This document shows, piece after piece, positions 1,201 to 21,504 of a DNA stretch of 64,000 nucleotides. A program made the translations under genes and the position numbers. The first letter of the stretch is position 1, and every line of letters begins with the position of its first letter. The DNA is from Actinomadura sp. HBU206391 (lineage in GTDB: Bacteria > Actinomycetota > Actinomycetes > Streptosporangiales > Streptosporangiaceae). Under the pieces are notes generated by a model. It saw only the letters and a list, made by a program, of their open reading frames with translations. It had not been told where the DNA came from and ran no database searches. The DNA lies in contig NZ_JABVEB010000001.1 of assembly GCF_014323665.1 (NCBI RefSeq), positions 372,001-436,000 of the forward strand, written 5' to 3'.

Positions 1201-1781
1201 ACGCGGCCGTCGAGAAGGACGACAAGACCCTCGAGAAAGAGCTGACCAGGCACTGGCTGCGGCCGGGCGAGCGACTCCTGTTCGGCTGCGCCCCGATCCA
1301 CGGGTACGTCCTCGCGCAGATCGCAGCCGAGACGCGGCACCCGCACGAACCACTCCGCCAGATGCCGACGCTGAAGCCGGCCCCGTGTCTGTGGCCGCTT
1401 CCCGCGAAGAGCGTGCTCGACCACTGGACCGACGATCCGACTGTGGGCTTCTTCGTGCAGGCACAGCATCAGGACCAGCACGCCGTCCACTTCGGCGATC
1501 ATTTGGCGCACAGCAAGGGCGAGGCCCGCCTGGTGCTGAGCAGCCAACGCATCTCGATCGTCTACCCGACGAACCTCCTGCACGCCCCCGCTCCCGGAGC
1601 ACCGCGGTTCACGACGTTCTGTGAGCTCCCCGTGGGGCAGGTGCGAGGTCTCTCCGCGCCCTTCGCCGGCCGAAGCGTTCCTCCGGTCCAGGTGATCGGG
1701 GTCGATTTCGTCGACGGCTCGACCCTGCATCTGCGCGACCCCCTGGCCGGCCTCCTCGTACACCGCGCCCAGAGCCGATAG
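1197..1781 (+). CDS. Unknown protein, second gene of a coupled pair
   Basis: A 194-residue protein whose ATG overlaps the stop of the preceding gene by four bases. Both share a phrase near the N-terminus (RPGERLLFG here, RPNEQLLWA there) and a strand motif of the type VLSSQRISIVY versus VLTSTRLAVF, so the two look like diverged relatives rather than unrelated neighbours. No signal peptide or membrane helix is visible. I infer a paralogous, co-translated pair that may form a hetero-oligomer. Function unknown. It is followed by a 24-base gap to the convergent MazF gene. Confidence 0.7.
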   Translation: MNAAVEKDDKTLEKELTRHWLRPGERLLFGCAPIHGYVLAQIAAETRHPHEPLRQMPTLKPAPCLWPLPAKSVLDHWTDDPTVGFFVQAQHQDQHAVHFGDHLAHSKGEARLVLSSQRISIVYPTNLLHAPAPGAPRFTTFCELPVGQVRGLSAPFAGRSVPPVQVIGVDFVDGSTLHLRDPLAGLLVHRAQSR

Positions 1782-1805
1782 GCGATCAGCCCGCGGGGGC
1801 GCGGG

Positions 1806-2153
1806 TCAGAGGCTCAGATGGAGACGGAGGGCGTCGTCCAGCAGTCGGAGCGTTGATCCGGGTACGACGCCGATGCGTCGTTGCAGCCTGTCGCGTGCGA
1901 CTGAGCGGACCTGCTCCGCCTGCGCTTTCGAGTCCGCCTTGAGCCCGCATTCCGATGCGCTGAGTGCCACCTGGAAGGGAAAGACTTTCTCGACGTTGGA
2001 AGTCACGGGCACAACCGTGATCACGCCGCGTCCAGTCCGGTCCGCGATGCGGTTCGCGGCGTCATTGCTGACGATCACTGCGGGCCGGAGCTTGTTCGCT
2101 TCACATCCGCGTGCCGGGTCCAGATCAACCAGGTAGACGTCACCTCGCCGCAT
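1806..2153 (-). CDS. mazF: MazF/PemK-family endoribonuclease toxin
   Basis: A 115-residue toxin of the MazF/PemK/CcdB fold. It opens with RRGDVYLVDLDP, the typical first strand, followed by KLRPAVIVSNDAAN (the RP-x-V-V/I-V-S/Q loop with the catalytic Arg) and TVVPVTSN (the conserved Thr). Known members cut single-stranded mRNA or tRNA in the cytosol and are blocked by a small antitoxin. I start at the ATG giving MRRGDV; an in-frame ATG at 2165 adds MGSP. It overlaps the antitoxin gene upstream, the usual order for translational coupling. An active toxin is expected, as no key residue is missing. Confidence 0.92.
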   Translation of the reverse strand: MRRGDVYLVDLDPARGCEANKLRPAVIVSNDAANRIADRTGRGVITVVPVTSNVEKVFPFQVALSASECGLKADSKAQAEQVRSVARDRLQRRIGVVPGSTLRLLDDALRLHLSL

Positions 2154-4344: not shown

Positions 4345-7300
4345 ATGTGGGTTCCGGCGGGAGACGGGTACGAGCTGAGTCTCGACGGGGCGGAGCTGTC
4401 GTGCCGTGACGATCAGGGCCAGGTCTGTGAGCCGATCCCCCGGCGGGTGCTGGAGACCAGCGCCTACCCCGCCTGGGCGCTGATCCACGATCCGGGCAAT
4501 GCCGAAGCCGGCCTCGAGGTCGTCGCCGGTCTGGAGCGGGCGGCCCGCAGCAAGTCCAGCGACGCGGCGTCCACCTATGTGTGGCTGGCCCGCTCGCTGC
4601 CGGCTCCGCACCTCCCCGTCTTCTGGGAGCATGCCGGCCGAGCTCTGATCAGGGCGGGTGACGCCAAGCGCGCCGCCGTCGCGTTCGGCCGGGCGCGCGA
4701 GGCGGAGGACACGCACGCGCTGCACGTCGACGAGACCGTGTGGTCGGCGTCGCATCTGGAGTTCGCCGCGGCCGGGGCACTGAGCGCCAAGTCGACCGAC
4801 GCCTTCGCGGCCGGGCTGCGCGACCGGCTCGAACCGGTGCGCGCCCTCGAAGCGCTGACCGAACTGGCCGTGGTGCGCACGCGGAGCGGGTCACCGCCAT
4901 GGCCGGGGCTGGCCCGTCAGGTCACCGCGCTCGCCCGGGCCGCCGGGCGCGACGCGATCGCCGAGCAGCAGCGGCTGATCGAACGGCTCCTGCCGCTGCC
5001 CGCGATCCGCCAGACCCCGTTCGCCCTGTGGAAGGCCTGGCGGCCCGCGCTCGTCCCGCCGGCCAAGGCCACACCCGGGGTACGCGCCCTGCTGCTCGAC
5101 CTGTTCCCGGTCGCCGACGACATCGACGGCTGGTGGCTCGACCTCCTCGACGAGTGCGCGGCGCTGGCCGCCCTGACCGGCGACGACCCCTCCGGACCAG
5201 AGCCTCTCGACGGCGCGGCCGGCTGGCTCACCCGCGCCGTCCTACACCCCCAGCGGGTCCGCCGCGACCGGACCCGCCGGCCCCTGCCACGACAGCTCGC
5301 CGCACTCATCCCCAGGATGAGCGCGCGGCTCGCCGCCGACGCGACCCCCGTCCGGCTGGGCGAGTCCGACCGCTGGGACGGCCCGCACGGGTGGGATCGC
5401 TTTCTCCGCGTCATCGATGTACGGGTCCTGGAGGCATGCCTCGCACACGACGTGCCCGTGGCGCCTCCCGCCGAAGACACCTCACTCGGTCTCGACTACT
5501 GGATGTCCGACCGGGATCCGGGCGAGGACATCCCCGCGCTGGCCGCCGACCCCGACTTCGCCCCTCTGCTGCACAAGGCGATGGACCGCTACCGCGACCG
5601 CGGCGATCTCGAACGAGTTCCCGCGCTGCGTCCCCTGCTCCAGGCCGCGGTCGGCGGGCGGCCGACGGGTTCAGAGGCGATCCCACGGCATCCGCTGGAC
5701 GATGCCAAGGTCGCCCGCGCGCTCTATGGGCTGTCCGAGCGTTGGGTCTCCTCGAACGACAGCGGAATGCTTCGCGGCATCCAGCTCGCCGGCCGTCTCC
5801 TGGACGGCTCGCTGGCCCCGGACGCGCTGGAGCCGGATGGGTTCAGGGCGATGAACAGCTACTTGTGGTTGCCGTTCATCGGCCGGATCGGGGCGGTCGC
5901 GCTGCGCGCCGTGGCCGCGTCGACCCGCGTCGAACGCCGGGAGCGGCTGCTGGCCCTGCTGGAGGTCTGGGCCGAGACCCCGTTCGCCGACACCGGCGCC
6001 AGGCTGCGCACCGGTATCGCCGAGACCGAGCGGTCGGCCGTACGCGGTGAGCACGGCACGGCCGTCGCCGTCGGCTGGGCGGGCGAAGGGCGGCGCCGCT
6101 TCATCGACGTGCGCGACGGTGCGGGCGAACCGCCGTCGCTGGGACCCGTCACCGACGTCAACGATGTCCTCAAGGGGTGGGGCGGGGCCGACCGGCTGCG
6201 CCGCCTCGTCTCCCTCGTACGGGACCGCGGCCCCGTGCCGTGGGACCAGGAAGCAGTGGGCCTTCTCGCCCGGCGCACCGGGCTGAGCCGCCCCGCGGCG
6301 GCCCTCACCCTCGCCGGCGTTCCCGGCAGCGGGAGCTACAACCCACCGTTCCTGGACGCCAACGAGCGCAAGATCTTGCGGCTCAAGGCGGCGGAGGCCG
6401 ACGACGCCAGAGCGGAGCTCGGCAGGCTCACCGTCGAACAGCGGCTCGATCTGCTGGCGTCCGTACTGCCCGACGACCCCGCCGACCTGTGGGAGCCGGG
6501 CGGGCTCCACGCGGTGGCCGAGCGGGTGGCCGAGACGTGGACCGCGCAGTTCGGTCGCAGGGTCGGCGTGCCCGAGGCGACCGTGGCGGCGGCGGCGGCG
6601 CTCGGCTCCCGCCTGCCCGCCGCCGAGATGTGCGCGGCGCTCGCCGATCCCCGCGCCGTCCCCGTCCTCACCACCGACGTGGACTCCTGGCTCGAGAAGG
6701 GCAAGTACGGAATCACGATCACCAGCCTTGACCTGGCGGCCTGGAGGTTCGAGGAGCTCCTCAGCACTCTCACCCTGGGTGTCTGCTGGGCCTATGCCGA
6801 GCTGCCCGCCGGTGACCCGGTCAGGACCGGCGCTCCCGAGGCGGTGGAACTGCTGCGCGAGCGGCTGGCCCACTCGGGGCTGCTGCTGAAGGCGGGCAGC
6901 CCCGGCTTCCGTCACAAGACGATCGAGGACCTGCGCGCCCGATTCGGTGACGAGCCGTACCAGGGCCCGCAGCCGCTCGACGTGGACAGCGTCGACGATG
7001 GTCTGACCGTCGGCATCATGGGCTCTTACTCACCCGACCTGTTCTTCCGGCCCGCGCTCCTGGGCGAGGACGCGCGAACCCAGGCACTGCTCACCACGGC
7101 CTCGTACGGGAACTGGACGCTCACCGACGTCCGGTGGCTGCTCGGCGAGGCTTGCGACCGCATGATGGCGCGGATCCGATCCGGGGCACTTCCCGAGGGC
7201 GCCTACGAGGCGGACCCGCTGGCCGCCGTCCCCGACCTGGTGACGGAGGTCGCCGAGCGGTTCGGGCTGGAGCCCGACCCGGCCGCCCTCTACCTTCAGC

Positions 7301-7632
7301 TGCTGACGCTGCTGAGACCCACCGACCGGAACGTCCGTACCTGGAACGGCTGGAAACCGCCTCGGCACAAGGCCGCGGTGGCGGCACTGACCGGACGCGG
7401 CCTGGTGATCGAGGCCAAGCGGGCCCGGGCCGGACGCGAGGTGTTCCTGCCGGGCGGATGGGTCAACGCCGACAAGCCGCACCTTCCACTCGAATCATGG
7501 AAGGCGAAGCTGTACGGGCTGTCAGTCTCCGCCGACGGAAAGACCGGCGGCCTGTCCAGGCCGTGGCGGCCGCTGCCCGAGCTGTACGCCGCGGCCTGGC
7601 AGCGCGTCCTGGACGGTGATCAACCGGGCTGA
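4345..7632 (+). CDS. Large (1095-residue) protein of unknown function
   Basis: The frame is open from 4033, but I start at the ATG at 4345 (MWVPAGDGYELSLDG) because GGGAG lies nine bases before it and codon bias becomes typical there. The first 200 residues are Ala-rich helices of TPR-like type (WLARSLPAPHLPVFWEHAGRA, HVDETVWSASHLEFAAAGAL); the rest is long, helical and without a nucleotide-binding motif, signal peptide or membrane segment. A similar very large cytosolic protein is often annotated only as DNA-binding or hypothetical in actinomycetes, sometimes near MoxR/VWA genes, which are absent here. No function can be given. Confidence 0.8.
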   Translation: MWVPAGDGYELSLDGAELSCRDDQGQVCEPIPRRVLETSAYPAWALIHDPGNAEAGLEVVAGLERAARSKSSDAASTYVWLARSLPAPHLPVFWEHAGRALIRAGDAKRAAVAFGRAREAEDTHALHVDETVWSASHLEFAAAGALSAKSTDAFAAGLRDRLEPVRALEALTELAVVRTRSGSPPWPGLARQVTALARAAGRDAIAEQQRLIERLLPLPAIRQTPFALWKAWRPALVPPAKATPGVRALLLDLFPVADDIDGWWLDLLDECAALAALTGDDPSGPEPLDGAAGWLTRAVLHPQRVRRDRTRRPLPRQLAALIPRMSARLAADATPVRLGESDRWDGPHGWDRFLRVIDVRVLEACLAHDVPVAPPAEDTSLGLDYWMSDRDPGEDIPALAADPDFAPLLHKAMDRYRDRGDLERVPALRPLLQAAVGGRPTGSEAIPRHPLDDAKVARALYGLSERWVSSNDSGMLRGIQLAGRLLDGSLAPDALEPDGFRAMNSYLWLPFIGRIGAVALRAVAASTRVERRERLLALLEVWAETPFADTGARLRTGIAETERSAVRGEHGTAVAVGWAGEGRRRFIDVRDGAGEPPSLGPVTDVNDVLKGWGGADRLRRLVSLVRDRGPVPWDQEAVGLLARRTGLSRPAAALTLAGVPGSGSYNPPFLDANERKILRLKAAEADDARAELGRLTVEQRLDLLASVLPDDPADLWEPGGLHAVAERVAETWTAQFGRRVGVPEATVAAAAALGSRLPAAEMCAALADPRAVPVLTTDVDSWLEKGKYGITITSLDLAAWRFEELLSTLTLGVCWAYAELPAGDPVRTGAPEAVELLRERLAHSGLLLKAGSPGFRHKTIEDLRARFGDEPYQGPQPLDVDSVDDGLTVGIMGSYSPDLFFRPALLGEDARTQALLTTASYGNWTLTDVRWLLGEACDRMMARIRSGALPEGAYEADPLAAVPDLVTEVAERFGLEPDPAALYLQLLTLLRPTDRNVRTWNGWKPPRHKAAVAALTGRGLVIEAKRARAGREVFLPGGWVNADKPHLPLESWKAKLYGLSVSADGKTGGLSRPWRPLPELYAAAWQRVLDGDQPG

Positions 7633-8101
7633 GTCGATGACGCAGGGTCGCGGACGGCGCGTTACTCCGTACCGCTCGGTGTCACGTTCGATGTGGCGTC
7701 GGGAATATGCAATGCCGGCCGGGGCGTGGGGACTGGGTGGGGGCCGGGCTTGCGGTCGAGACGGGCTGAGGTACCGCCATCGCTACAGAGGGGCGTTTCG
7801 TGGTCCCCGTGCCGGAGCGGCTGAAGACCGCCACGGAGAGCCGGCGCGGCCGGGGCCCGCGCTGGACCGCTTCGTCGACGCGCACGCCCAGGCCCGCGGC
7901 GGCCGTGACACCCCTCCTGGCTGAGCGCCGCCCTGGAACAGTACGTCGATGGCTCTCGGGTTTGACCTTGGGGCCTGCTCGCCGCGCTGCCCTACTGGCG
8001 ACTTCTCGGGCTCCGCGCCCCACTGCGGCCGGGTTTCCTCGAACGGGTGGCCGACACCATCCATCGAGTCCCGGCCGCGACCCCCGCCGCCGGCGATCCG
8101 G
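7633..8101. other. Intergenic stretch with a possible decayed C-terminal fragment
   Basis: No complete gene is visible in these 469 bases. On the plus strand a frame open from 7966 to a TGA at 8116-8118 has good third-position GC and reads like a protein C-terminus (LLAALPYWRLLGLRAPL, then FLERVADTIHRVPA). It has no start codon and is cut by a stop just upstream, so it may be the tail of a lost gene. It would overlap the end of the convergent amidohydrolase gene by 17 bases. The family cannot be named. Confidence 0.35.
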
Positions 8102-9394
8102 TCACGGCACAGCGGTGAGGTGGGCGGCCGATTCCTCGAGGCCGGACAGCACGGCGGCGATGTCGTGGTGGAGCAGCCGGCCGTCGCGCTTGACCACCCG
8201 CCCGGCGACGAGGACGGTGTCGACGCAGCCGGTGTCGGCCGACAACGCGATGGCTCCGATCGGGTCGTGTGCGGGCGCCATGGCCAGGGTGTCGGTGCGC
8301 AGGAGCACCAGGTCGGCCTGCTTGCCCGGTCGCAGCGACCCGGTGACGTCGCCGAGGCCCGCCACCTCGGCTCCCTCGATCGTGGCCATCCGCAGTGCGT
8401 CGCGGGTGGTGAAACCCATCCCGGCGCCGTCCGGGCGGGCACGCTCCAGGGCGTAGGCCGCGCGCATCAGGCTGAACATGTCCCCCGGGCCGCTCGTCAC
8501 GGCGTCGGCGCTCAGGGCGATGGGCAGCCCCGCCGCACGTGCCCGGCCCGTCGCCGGGTAGCCGATGCCGAGTTCCGCCTCGACGATCGGTGAGATCGAC
8601 GCGGTGCCGCCGCTGTCGGCGAGTTCTTTGAGGGCGTCGCCGGTGTAGTGGTTGGGGTGGATGTAGGTCGTCCGGGGGATGAGCAGCCCGTTCTCCCGGA
8701 GGAACGCCAGGCCCCGCTCGGCGCTCTGCACGCCATTACCGCCCATGTGCACGGTGACGGACAGGTCGAGGTCGCGGGCGAGCCGCCATTCGTGCAGGGC
8801 CGCCTCTTCCCCGGCGATCTCCGGGCCCAGCGCGCCGATCGCCATCGAGAGCAGTGGGTCGGCCGCGCCGAAGTGCCGCTTGTGCACACGGTGCCCCTCG
8901 GCCGCCAGTTCCTCCGGTCCGCCGCCCCCTCCGTAGCAGTAGCCGAGCACCGCCCGGATGCCGGCCCGCCTCAGCGCTTCGACGGTCGCCTCGGTATGGG
9001 CGGGCGTGAGCTGGATGTGCGACCAGTCCACCAGCGTCGTGATCCCGGCGTCGAGGCATTCGAGTGCTCCGGCGAGGTTGCCCGCGTACACGTCCTGCGG
9101 CCGGTAGCGCGGAGCGACCTCGCCGATGATACGGCCGAGGTATCCGGCGAAGGAGATGTCGGGGGTGAGCGAGCGGATGCCCGCCTGCCAGGTGTGCCGG
9201 TGCGTGTCGACGAAGCCGGGCAGGACGATCCGGTCGGTCGCGTCGATCAGCTCGGCGTCGCCCGGGGCGTGCAGGCCGGTTCCGACCGCGGCGATCCGGC
9301 CGTCCTCGATGAGGACGTCGGTGTGGCCGGTGACGGCGGGCATCGGGTCGGTGTCGATGACGATGCCGTTGCGGATGAGCAGTCTGGAGGTCAT
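8102..9394 (-). CDS. Amidohydrolase / chlorohydrolase-type metal-dependent deaminase
   Basis: A 430-residue member of the amidohydrolase superfamily, cytosine deaminase/AtzB-TrzN branch. Visible motifs: GFVDTHRHTWQ (two metal-ligand His, residues 65 and 67), VTVHMGG (third His), TYIHPNHY (fourth), and ALSADAVTSGPGDMF (metal-binding Asp in the SxD strand). The N- and C-terminal segments form the usual small beta-sandwich (LLIRNGIVIDTD, DTVLVAGRVVKRDG). Such enzymes hydrolyse amide or amine groups of heterocycles in the cytosol; substrate unknown. It is divergent from a MarR regulator 59 bases away, which probably controls it. Confidence 0.9.
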   Translation of the reverse strand: MTSRLLIRNGIVIDTDPMPAVTGHTDVLIEDGRIAAVGTGLHAPGDAELIDATDRIVLPGFVDTHRHTWQAGIRSLTPDISFAGYLGRIIGEVAPRYRPQDVYAGNLAGALECLDAGITTLVDWSHIQLTPAHTEATVEALRRAGIRAVLGYCYGGGGGPEELAAEGHRVHKRHFGAADPLLSMAIGALGPEIAGEEAALHEWRLARDLDLSVTVHMGGNGVQSAERGLAFLRENGLLIPRTTYIHPNHYTGDALKELADSGGTASISPIVEAELGIGYPATGRARAAGLPIALSADAVTSGPGDMFSLMRAAYALERARPDGAGMGFTTRDALRMATIEGAEVAGLGDVTGSLRPGKQADLVLLRTDTLAMAPAHDPIGAIALSADTGCVDTVLVAGRVVKRDGRLLHHDIAAVLSGLEESAAHLTAVP

Positions 9395-18582: not shown

Positions 18583-19095
18583 TCAGACCGGATGATAATC
18601 CTTGTGATCGATCGCCCGTCCCCATACGGCTTCGAAGGCGGATACGCAGAGCTTGACGACGGCCGGATCGGTGACGATCTCGTCGTTCAGGTACCTACCG
18701 TCGCCGGCGAAGTAGCCGAAGCGAACCCGATCCTGATCGAACACCCAGAAATCGTTACCGGGCAGCGCCAGGTCAGAGGCACGGCGGCGAGGCAGCCAGC
18801 GCACGTGCTCACCACTTGCGATGTTGAGATCCTCGGTGAGCTCGTATTCATGTCGGATGAAGTCTGTGATCGGTTCGGAGACGACACGAGCCCGTCGCAC
18901 CTCAACGCCACGAGAGGTCGTGGCGGTCATCAGGTCAAACCAATCTCGCCACCTTTCGGCAGCATCGACCTTGATCCCGGCTTTCCAGTCAAGATATACG
19001 GGATCACCCGGCGTGTACATGTCACGCATTTCCAGGTGCATAGCTGACTGCTTGCACCCGGCGAACATCTCATCGAAGGCCGGATTCTCCGTCAC
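18583..19095 (-). CDS. DUF6879-family protein
   Basis: A 170-residue protein of the DUF6879 type: FAGCKQSAMHLEMRDMYTP, then FDLMTATTSRGVEVRRARVVSEP, and DFWVFDQDRVRFGYFAGDG near the end. I start at the GTG at 19095 because AGGAGG lies just before it; the frame is open further up without such a site. In actinomycetes this family commonly sits beside XRE regulators with a DUF5753 domain. Here no such gene is adjacent; instead it is divergent from the NLR-like gene across 258 bases of lower-GC DNA. Function unknown. Confidence 0.82.
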   Translation of the reverse strand: MTENPAFDEMFAGCKQSAMHLEMRDMYTPGDPVYLDWKAGIKVDAAERWRDWFDLMTATTSRGVEVRRARVVSEPITDFIRHEYELTEDLNIASGEHVRWLPRRRASDLALPGNDFWVFDQDRVRFGYFAGDGRYLNDEIVTDPAVVKLCVSAFEAVWGRAIDHKDYHPV

Positions 19096-19353
19096 TGCAT
19101 GCCTCCTGGATGATTGCTCGCATACGTGCCGGAAGTCGAACGACTTTCCGGAGCGGTAGCGTGCGGAGGATACGCGACAAGACTCGCTTGGCATTGTGGG
19201 TAGGTCAAGAGCCCCTGCGACCTATGTCTTTTTGCGCGCCATGGCCGGTGGTTTAGTCTAAGGCTACTGGCATCGCTGAAGGATAGAGGGTTCCATGACC
19301 AGGGCTATCGACACCGCTGGGTCCGAGCGCACAGCACGTATCAGCTGACAAGT

Positions 19354-21504
19354 ATGCATATGGCTGAGCGATCGAGTAGCGCAAATACGTTTTCCGGACA
19401 GGCTAAAACTGTGGTGCAGGCCGGTGCTGTACACGGTGGCATCAACCTGCACGTTGCGACGCCTTCGCCGCGGGTTCCACACCAGCTACCGCTGATACCT
19501 TCCGGTTTCGTTAATCGTGAGAACAATCTCCGCCAACTCGACGCGCTGCTCACGGAAATCTTCACGGGTGCTGAGGATCACCTGTCCTCGGCGATCGTAT
19601 CGGCGGTGGGCGGCGCTCCTGGAGTAGGTAAGACCGCACTCGCTGTGCGTTGGGCGCATCAGGTTCGTCACAAGTTCCCAGACGGGGAGCTCTACATCGA
19701 CATGCACGGCTATGGGCCGGGGCTGCCTCTCCCGCCGGAACGAGCCTTGGATGCCTTCCTCAGAGCTCTGGATGCGCCCCCCGACTGGATTCCTGATGAT
19801 GTGGAAGCCCGCGCGGCATTGTTCAGATCAATGCTCGATGGGAAACGTGTGCTCGTGCTGATCGACAATGCGTCCTCGTCCGCACAGGTCCGCCAGTTGC
19901 TTCCTGCGTCACGTCATTGCTGTGTCGTGGTCACGAGCCGGAGTACGCTCGCCGGTTTGGTCGCGAGGGAGGGAGTAGTGCGCGTGACACTGGACACTCT
20001 GTCGCCCGAGGAATCGGTCCGACTTCTGTCCGAGGTGATAGGGCGCGCCAGGATCGATGCTGAGTCGTCCAGCGCGCTGCGGGTTGCTGAACTGTGCGGT
20101 CATCTACCGCTTGCTCTAAGGGTGGTAGCCGAGCGTGCGGCCAGCCGGTCCGAACTTTCCATGGCGGAGCTGGCCGCAGAACTGGCGAGTGAACAGAGCC
20201 GCCTCGACGCGCTGAGTTTGAACGAAGACCAGCTCAGCGATGTGCGCGCGGTTTTCTCATGGTCTTATCAGGCCTTGATGCCGGAGCTGCAGCAGGCCTT
20301 TCGAAGGCTTGGTCTGCATGCGGGTGCTGAGATCGGAACCGAGGCCGCCGCAGCCCTGATCGGGATTGGTATACCCGTCGCGCGTCGGCGATTGAGGGCA
20401 CTCGCCGACGCGCATCTGCTCCAGGAGACGAAACCTGACCGCTTCCGCCTGCACGACCTCCTGAGATCGTATTCATTGGAGCGGGCGCATGCGGACGAGA
20501 CACAGGAAGAACGGACCCAAGCGGTGCGGCGAGTGCTGAGCTGGTATCTCCTCACCGCTGACGCTGCCAGACGGGCCGCATTGCCATACTCCCCCTCCGT
20601 GCCGTTGGTGCCGGCAGGTGGGATCCAGTTCACCGATGCGTTCCCCGACGGTCCAGCGGCGATGCGCTGGTTCGAGGCAGAACGGCCGAATGTGATGGCC
20701 GCGGTCAGGCAGGCGGCCGAGTTGGGACAGTACGACATCGCCTGGAAGCTTCCGATGGCATCGACCGGGCTCTTTGAGATCCATTCCTACTACGCTGACT
20801 GGGAGGAGAATCACCGCATCGGACTGAAGGCGGCGCTCACCGTCGGAGATCCGCTCGGTGAAGCGCTCAACCGGAACATGCTCGGTGACGCCGCTTGGCG
20901 GCTCGGCCGATGGGACGACGCCACAGAGGCGTACGAACGTGCCGCTCAACTTGCCCGTGATCTTTCCGTGGGTTGGCTTCAGGGGTTCGCGCTACGAGGA
21001 CTGGGACTGATTCAGGAGGCGCAGGGCAACTTCGATAGGGCGGCCGAACTCTTCGACGCGGCGCTGTCGGTCTTCCGGGGGGCGGACTTCCGACGGGGCG
21101 AAGGGATGTCGTTGCTCAGCCTCGGGAAGTGCGCTCGTGCCCTTGATGACCTGCCCCGAGCGGTTACGTACGGCGCGGAGGCCGTGGCGATTTTCGAGGA
21201 CATCCAGGACACCTGGACCGTCGCATTCGGCAGGCTCGCATTGGCCGAAAGCCTCGCCGGCCTTGGCCGTGGAGCAGAGGCGACCGCGCAGTTCCAGCAA
21301 GCGGCCGAGGTTTTCCGCGGCTTCGGAGATGGGCGCAGTGAGGTACTCGCACTTGTGCCACTCGGCGAGGTGTTCCACGAGATGGAGGAGCTTGGCGCGG
21401 CGCGCGAGTGCTGGCGCCGTGCCGCTGAGCTCCTGGAAGCTCAGCGCGACCCGAAGGCGGAGGAGATCTGGGCACGGCTCGCCAGCGTGGACTCGGATGG
21501 ATAG
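19354..21504 (+). CDS. NLR-like STAND ATPase (NB-ARC + TPR) with amyloid-type N-terminal motif
   Basis: A 716-residue signalling ATPase. Residues about 15-34 carry a Q-A-G core with flanking pattern TVVQAGAVHGGINLHV, matching the RHIM/PP-like bacterial amyloid signalling motif class described in actinomycete NLR proteins. Residues 51-330 form an NB-ARC module: Walker A GGAPGVGKTA (86-95), Walker B RVLVLIDNAS, the TSR sensor VVVTSRS, and the GLPL-equivalent CGHLPLALRVVA. A winged-helix part (RFRLHDLLRSYSLERA) follows, then TPR repeats from about 500 on (ALNRNMLGDAAWRLGRWDDA). There is no OmpR-type DNA-binding domain, so it is not an AfsR/SARP activator. GC is lower than in neighbouring genes, hinting at transfer. 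Confidence 0.88.
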   Translation: MHMAERSSSANTFSGQAKTVVQAGAVHGGINLHVATPSPRVPHQLPLIPSGFVNRENNLRQLDALLTEIFTGAEDHLSSAIVSAVGGAPGVGKTALAVRWAHQVRHKFPDGELYIDMHGYGPGLPLPPERALDAFLRALDAPPDWIPDDVEARAALFRSMLDGKRVLVLIDNASSSAQVRQLLPASRHCCVVVTSRSTLAGLVAREGVVRVTLDTLSPEESVRLLSEVIGRARIDAESSSALRVAELCGHLPLALRVVAERAASRSELSMAELAAELASEQSRLDALSLNEDQLSDVRAVFSWSYQALMPELQQAFRRLGLHAGAEIGTEAAAALIGIGIPVARRRLRALADAHLLQETKPDRFRLHDLLRSYSLERAHADETQEERTQAVRRVLSWYLLTADAARRAALPYSPSVPLVPAGGIQFTDAFPDGPAAMRWFEAERPNVMAAVRQAAELGQYDIAWKLPMASTGLFEIHSYYADWEENHRIGLKAALTVGDPLGEALNRNMLGDAAWRLGRWDDATEAYERAAQLARDLSVGWLQGFALRGLGLIQEAQGNFDRAAELFDAALSVFRGADFRRGEGMSLLSLGKCARALDDLPRAVTYGAEAVAIFEDIQDTWTVAFGRLALAESLAGLGRGAEATAQFQQAAEVFRGFGDGRSEVLALVPLGEVFHEMEELGAARECWRRAAELLEAQRDPKAEEIWARLASVDSDG

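Follow-up and report, generated by a model that had tools for sequence, protein, structure and literature searches.

BASS motifs pair the N-termini of NLR proteins with the C-termini of Bell proteins, and a BASS3 peptide aggregates in an amyloid-like manner (PMC8086366, PMC7889193). The description of BASS1–10 with Bell-domain effectors is that of Dyrka et al. 2020, drawn on here as far as it is relayed in PMC8086366 and PMC7889193. The Bell domain is described as a small helical bundle with a hydrophobic helix and a C-terminal motif, its gene lying adjacent to that of the NLR (PMC7889193).

The locus considered here lies in a window of 64 kb, the whole stretch of DNA that was analysed, and encodes an NLR which, from the relayed descriptions, is nearest in kind to the RHIM-like BASS3 group. 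In common with BASS NLRs it has a short N-terminal motif of the Q-x-G type and an architecture of NB-ARC plus repeats (NACHT being the alternative in BASS NLRs); Bell-type proteins of the family carry such a motif at their C-termini, and one in the same genome carries a related form. It differs in that the effector is not adjacent, the conserved neighbour being instead a pair of genes for a small protein (SP) and a DUF6879 protein, and in that the motif core is VQAG/VQAR as opposed to VQ(V/I)G. The BASS3 group is represented here by one published example, VDLRDAKGVQVGDGNVQINRF. Comparison with the fungal PP-motif NLR/HELLP systems and the mammalian RHIM necrosome reveals a shared V-Q-x-G core, which stands at the N-terminal end of an NB-ARC-TPR protein here just as it does in PNT1 (PMC7889193), but the present system is bacterial, no HeLo-type effector was detected and the NLR gave no match to Pfam RHIM up to E 1, the RHIM core being (I/V)Q(I/L/V)G and that of the NLR VQAG. 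We regard the locus as a variant form of NLR signalling by bacterial amyloid motifs that includes a putative regulatory module, SP-DUF6879; our literature search found no paper naming or describing DUF6879 or an SP-DUF6879-NLR operon.

The NLR and its N-terminal motif

The NLR-type STAND ATPase of 716 residues is encoded on the forward strand (19354..21504) and comprises an N-terminal motif, NB-ARC and TPR parts. The NB-ARC domain (residues 82–306, 19597..20271; PF00931, 1.9e-13) carries the P-loop GGAPGVGKTALA, as read from the translation, and the C-terminal TPR region (TPR_12, 9e-21) spans residues 507–690 approximately (20872..21423). Both matches are above the Pfam cut-offs. Searches of Pfam, NCBIfam and solved structures gave no DNA-binding domain, the SARP DNA-binding and BTAD domains being absent. 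The initial annotation, which had listed the NLR reading frame with full NB-ARC and TPR parts and no DNA-binding domain, the motif peptide, a divergent DUF6879 gene and a dip in GC content, agrees with the sequence on all these points.

The nearest solved structure is AfsR (8k60/8jke), matched over residues 34–661 with a value of 6e-88 and in the NB-ARC-TPR part only. Because the match begins at residue 34, the first 33 residues, which hold the motif NTFSGQAKTVVQAGAVHGGINLHV, are left unexplained by the AfsR part. The NLR thus resembles the AfsR (SARP) regulators in a homologous NB-ARC-TPR part and differs from them in having an N-terminal motif in place of the SARP DNA-binding part. The best NCBIfam matches, AfsR and a RiPP TPR protein, fall far under the cut-off, and PADLOC 2023 returned a generic TPR model as its sole match to the locus.

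The motif occupies residues 11–34 (19384..19455, forward strand) and was delimited by profiles and homologue alignment. A profile built from effector-side motifs only, these having first been gathered with an NLR-motif profile that included the window sequence, gives the window NLR a score of 31 bits (E 6.6e-9), the next-best ORF of the window reaching 6 bits, and none of 20,000 shuffles of the NLR N-terminus attains the motif's score. Asn11, Val20, Val21, Gln22, Gly24, His27 and Gly28 do not vary among the five full-length sequences that are closest; the four nearest full-length homologues (42–47% identity) have them in common with the window NLR, and all ten intact DUF6879-linked NLRs carry the motif. 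The RHIM/PP-like assignment that had been made from the Q-A-G core and its flanks stands, and the finding proposed as its refutation, absence of the motif from close homologues, does not occur. Where NLR loci were examined in detail, most proteins that start near the NB-ARC domain show N-x(3)-G-x(3-6)-VQA-x(2)-[VI]-x-G-[GDN] at the same place, and long proteins of the SARP or HTH type lack it. The NLR-motif profile has matches in 77 of 151 family genomes and, for NLRs with a readable N-terminus, motif and DUF6879 co-occur (p 0.0015, kinship ignored). Judged from these alignments and scores, the motif is of the RHIM/PP/BASS3-like kind, above chance and conserved at NLR N-termini. A literature search for the string QARDIHG found no match.

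A profile search of genome contigs with the NLR alignment, which was diluted by the P-loop pattern, gave 28 loci, three of them motif-bearing and none with DUF6879. A homologue on a Streptomyces europaeiscabiei plasmid has the motif variant GVVQGRDFYGGVHLH, and DUF6879 is absent from its annotated surroundings.

Bell-type proteins in the family and in this genome

Some NLR-motif matches in the 151 family genomes fall in short non-NLR proteins, many with the motif at their end, and several of these hold a helical domain of about 95 residues (MDEVTLAIAAAVAGKVGESLTE...). We call them Bell-type by their likeness to the Bell description in PMC7889193, not by a Bell profile. A search with the domain alone (A6), from which the motif had been removed to avoid circularity and which is independent of it, found matches in 15 of 41 genomes. 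Outside the query there were 12 Bell-type proteins with E < 1e-6, and profiles recognise a motif at the end of 11. Several Bell genes adjoin NLR genes in relatives. The effector motif at locus L185 (NTFTGQARTVIQARDIHGGLTIN) is as in the window motif at 13 of 22 positions, counted by eye.

Does the genome that carries the window encode a partner? The search for other motif-bearing proteins that had been recommended was run with the motif profile and gave three strong ORFs, all NLRs. No motif-bearing effector lies beside the NLR and there is no further motif ORF in the whole window, as expected from the initial annotation, which had placed the effector elsewhere as one option. The Bell-type profile supplies one candidate for that option, a protein encoded at 75739–76023 plus tail on contig C576 (E 1.8e-30), which ends in NNVGGSAKVGNVIQARDISGINIG. 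No NLR was detected in the 19 kb around its gene. The C576 motif scores 14 bits against the A1 profile, E 0.5 genome-wide; by sequence it appears related to the NLR motif and matched to it in part, and this pairing is the strongest doubt in our account. We treat the protein as a candidate effector in trans. The assembly is about 90% complete and in 586 contigs, so that the true effector may be missing from it. Of the family genomes, the five in which the DUF6879-NLR pair is intact each encode a Bell-type protein, against 10 of 20 others, a difference that is not significant (one-sided p 0.057).

Elsewhere in the family, a single genome (G009) has thirteen motif matches and one Bell-type gene, a ratio of many sensors to one effector. 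Locus L323 (G004:C171) encodes at 1402–1899, forward strand, a Bell-like protein beside a P-loop ORF, and its end, YTVDVRGAQAVQIGDKNMQHNSFEG, is near the published BASS3 example.

The DUF6879 neighbour: cassettes, history and fold

The neighbour in the window is DUF6879 (PF21806, 1e-51), encoded on the reverse strand at 18583..19095; its start is probably, from the sequence context, the GTG at 19095 after AGGAGG rather than the ATG at 19194. In the 151 family genomes, 44 of the 69 DUF6879 genes of clades A and B (19/33 and 25/36, respectively) lie 48–259 bp upstream of a motif ORF on the same strand. The suggestion that DUF6879 might be the partner of the NLR holds to the extent that it is a conserved neighbour of motif NLRs across the family; it does not appear to extend to the role of an amyloid-templated effector, since the protein has neither motif nor PLD catalytic residues.

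Neighbours were tallied for 73 DUF6879 copies in 23 genomes, counts that are slightly inflated since two places are covered by overlapping loci: XRE-DUF5753 accounts for 36, DUF6082 for 13, NLRs for 12, of which one (L116) is a distant, weak match on the other strand, and other genes for 12. Upstream of DUF6879 in 52 of the 73 copies is SP, a protein of some 75–90 residues without a Pfam match. The intact NLR cassettes all have SP, DUF6879 and NLR on one strand, the window being the exception, and relatives of the NLR usually sit in such a three-gene operon. The SP-DUF6879 pair precedes XRE-DUF5753 or DUF6082 more often than it does an NLR, which suggests an exchangeable module that elsewhere may serve XRE-DUF5753 regulators or DUF6082 membrane proteins. 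The XRE-DUF5753 cassettes, of the WhiJ/BldB type in Streptomyces (PMC10294661), are alike in that SP-DUF6879 commonly precedes them and in that the fold predicted for DUF5753 is also that predicted for DUF6879, the two being weakly similar in sequence, and unlike in that here the third gene is an NLR and not a DNA-binding protein. In 13 loci, for example L036 (16805–17278 and the next gene), L160 (5599–6093) and L165 (7010–7489; G000:C1:297994), the gene after SP-DUF6879 encodes the membrane protein DUF6082, which gives the cassette a third type of output. In IMG/VR, 80 contigs filed as viral (L225–L304) carry window-like DUF6879, with 72 of the 80 copies in SP-DUF6879-XRE order and none with an NLR, which suggests that prophages or other mobile elements may carry the cassette.

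The window retains a piece of SP. The truncated 3′ end of the gene (19070..19147, reverse strand; last 25 codons KVVRLPARMRAIIQEACSDGESGLR) overlaps the DUF6879 start; it matches the SP profile at 4e-7 and is 83% identical in DNA to the locus of a same-genus genome (G001), the identity ending at 19148. A rearrangement junction is placed at about 19148/19149, and the stretch 19149..19353 leads from the cut SP to the NLR start. At the same-genus locus SP is intact, a window-type DUF6879 is represented by its first part and the NLR by residues 149–713, all in one direction and joined by a deletion. The window NLR groups with this remnant and then with clade-A cassette NLRs (support 100/100), whereas the window DUF6879 falls, with starred support, among the members of the XRE-cassette clade (64% to L131) and well away from the DUF6879 partners of the sister NLRs, which are of clade A. 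As a window-type DUF6879 stands beside the same NLR in a same-genus species, the pairing is older than the split of the two species; since a deletion has reduced that copy to a remnant, loss of the system is possible. From these comparisons an XRE-type SP-DUF6879 was probably beside this NLR already in the genus, the window order being a later rearrangement. A simple inversion of DUF6879 was considered and rejected, since no 5′ portion of SP could be found on the opposite side.

GC content is 59.1% in DUF6879, 57.6% in the gap and 63.6% in the NLR, giving 62.3% for the whole locus and 69.4% for the window; in samples taken every 100 bp along the window just two 2.9-kb stretches are as low and both overlap the locus. 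The dip fits a foreign origin, not one tidy unit. The earlier proposal of transfer as a unit proves too simple, because the relatives of one gene are not those of the other and a cut-off piece of a third gene is attached to the DUF6879 side, and the divergent order that had been drawn is a local rearrangement of what is usually a co-directional set including SP. Among 20 relatives none has a homologue of the gene downstream of the locus; in the same-genus genome the tannase-like upstream gene and the NLR remnant are on separate contigs.

An AlphaFold2 model of DUF6879 from 49 sequences has pLDDT 94 and pTM 0.89. Its leading structural matches (Foldseek, VIA-align) are all from the PLD superfamily, with Z up to 11.6, and include Nuc (Z 11.5, 132 residues, rmsd 3.8), TrmBL2 (Z 10.8), PLD3, NucT, Zucchini and FAM83B. 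Viral models (BFVD) gave PLD-type proteins only and none beyond the PDB result; a DUF6879 profile had no significant match among PDB sequences. The HxK(x4)D signature is found in 0 of 33 and 0 of 49 aligned rows, its position reading GNDFWVFD with Asp or Glu at the Lys position in every row, where the columns were placed by spacing and not by residue-level structural alignment. On the model, DUF6879 appears to be a catalytically dead PLD fold and looks like a sensor or adaptor rather than a killer. In the regulator TrmB, a natural parallel, the ligand is bound by a dead PLD domain. DUF6879 resembles TrmB/TrmBL2 and FAM83, with their pseudo-PLD domains, in a predicted PLD fold without catalysis, and is unlike them in being free-standing and, in the genomes examined here, actinobacterial. 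The structure matches of DUF5753 are also PLD, though weaker (7e0m, 3.9e-4), and comparison of the DUF5753 and DUF6879 profiles gives E 3.2e-5 with a probability of 73%. DUF5753, modelled from L225 (2568–3377, model mb8ae992f6b7f), forms the C-terminal part of WhiJ-type XRE regulators, which appears to have a PLD-like fold.

Possible modes of action

The likeliest reading of the locus is an NLR sensor of the amyloid type whose regulatory partner is exchangeable, and for signalling by the NLR through its RHIM/BASS3-like amyloid motif we estimate a probability of roughly 0.55. The TPR part, perhaps with DUF6879, would sense a signal, and the NB-ARC domain would bind nucleotide and oligomerise. 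Clustered N-terminal motifs could then nucleate a cross-beta assembly as a template for the motif at the C-terminus of a Bell-type effector, and the effector would attack the membrane, with cell death and perhaps defence as the outcome. The sensor would act in trans here, the sole Bell-type protein found lying far off on C576. DUF6879, whatever it may sense, would be a sensing or gating partner on a dead PLD fold, as in TrmB regulators. A wider version, a family-wide immune network in which many motif NLRs, several gated by SP-DUF6879, feed one unlinked Bell executioner per genome by amyloid templating, strikes us as quite unlikely.

The truncation of SP, the orientation inverted with respect to relatives, the XRE clade of DUF6879 and the broken same-genus copy could all be read as decay, the window pair being a non-functional remnant in which DUF6879 and the SP end are relics of an XRE-type cassette and have ceased to function with the NLR. 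Set against this are the intact state of both ORFs and the presence of the same DUF6879 type beside the same NLR in the same-genus species. We give this some weight while thinking it unlikely, and it concerns the local pair, so is compatible with an amyloid-type sensor as the explanation for the NLR itself. Were DUF6879 the effector, its PLD-like domain cutting nucleic acid or lipid once activated by the NLR, the conserved adjacency and the fold would be accounted for; the lack of the catalytic His and Lys in all aligned rows, the lack of a motif and the service of the same gene in XRE and DUF6082 cassettes make this very improbable.

The NLR itself might be an AfsR-like regulatory STAND ATPase without a DNA-binding part, acting in development or metabolism by ordinary protein contacts, with the motif a short beta-strand docking element and not an amyloid. 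AfsR as the best match among solved structures and, far below cut-off, with the RiPP TPR protein in NCBIfam, is in keeping with such a role, as is the linkage of SP-DUF6879 mostly to XRE-DUF5753 transcription factors. Yet the AfsR match starts only after the motif, and the motif is also C-terminal in Bell-type proteins, the published partner type; we consider a regulator of this kind rather doubtful. An amyloid-type sensor would link a conserved operon with the amyloid NLRs of RHIM-like type in filamentous bacteria. DUF6879 and DUF5753 gain a predicted fold, and the findings suggest one sensing module common to transcription factors, membrane proteins and NLRs. If this is true, the control of bacterial amyloid NLRs becomes testable, as does the manner in which NLRs without an adjacent effector find one.

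Motif proteins of other designs also occur. At L179 (G158:C1:7268000-7279000) a 118-residue protein that combines a transmembrane stretch with a motif at its C-terminus (5591–5944, reverse strand) is encoded divergently from a motif-bearing ORF of 745 residues (5884–8118, forward strand), a compact pair without a Bell-type domain. At L186 (4296–5147) and L192 (4521–5534), both on the reverse strand, proteins of about 280–340 residues that are neither NLR nor Bell-type have the motif near the N-terminus, followed by a transmembrane segment and a C-terminal domain.
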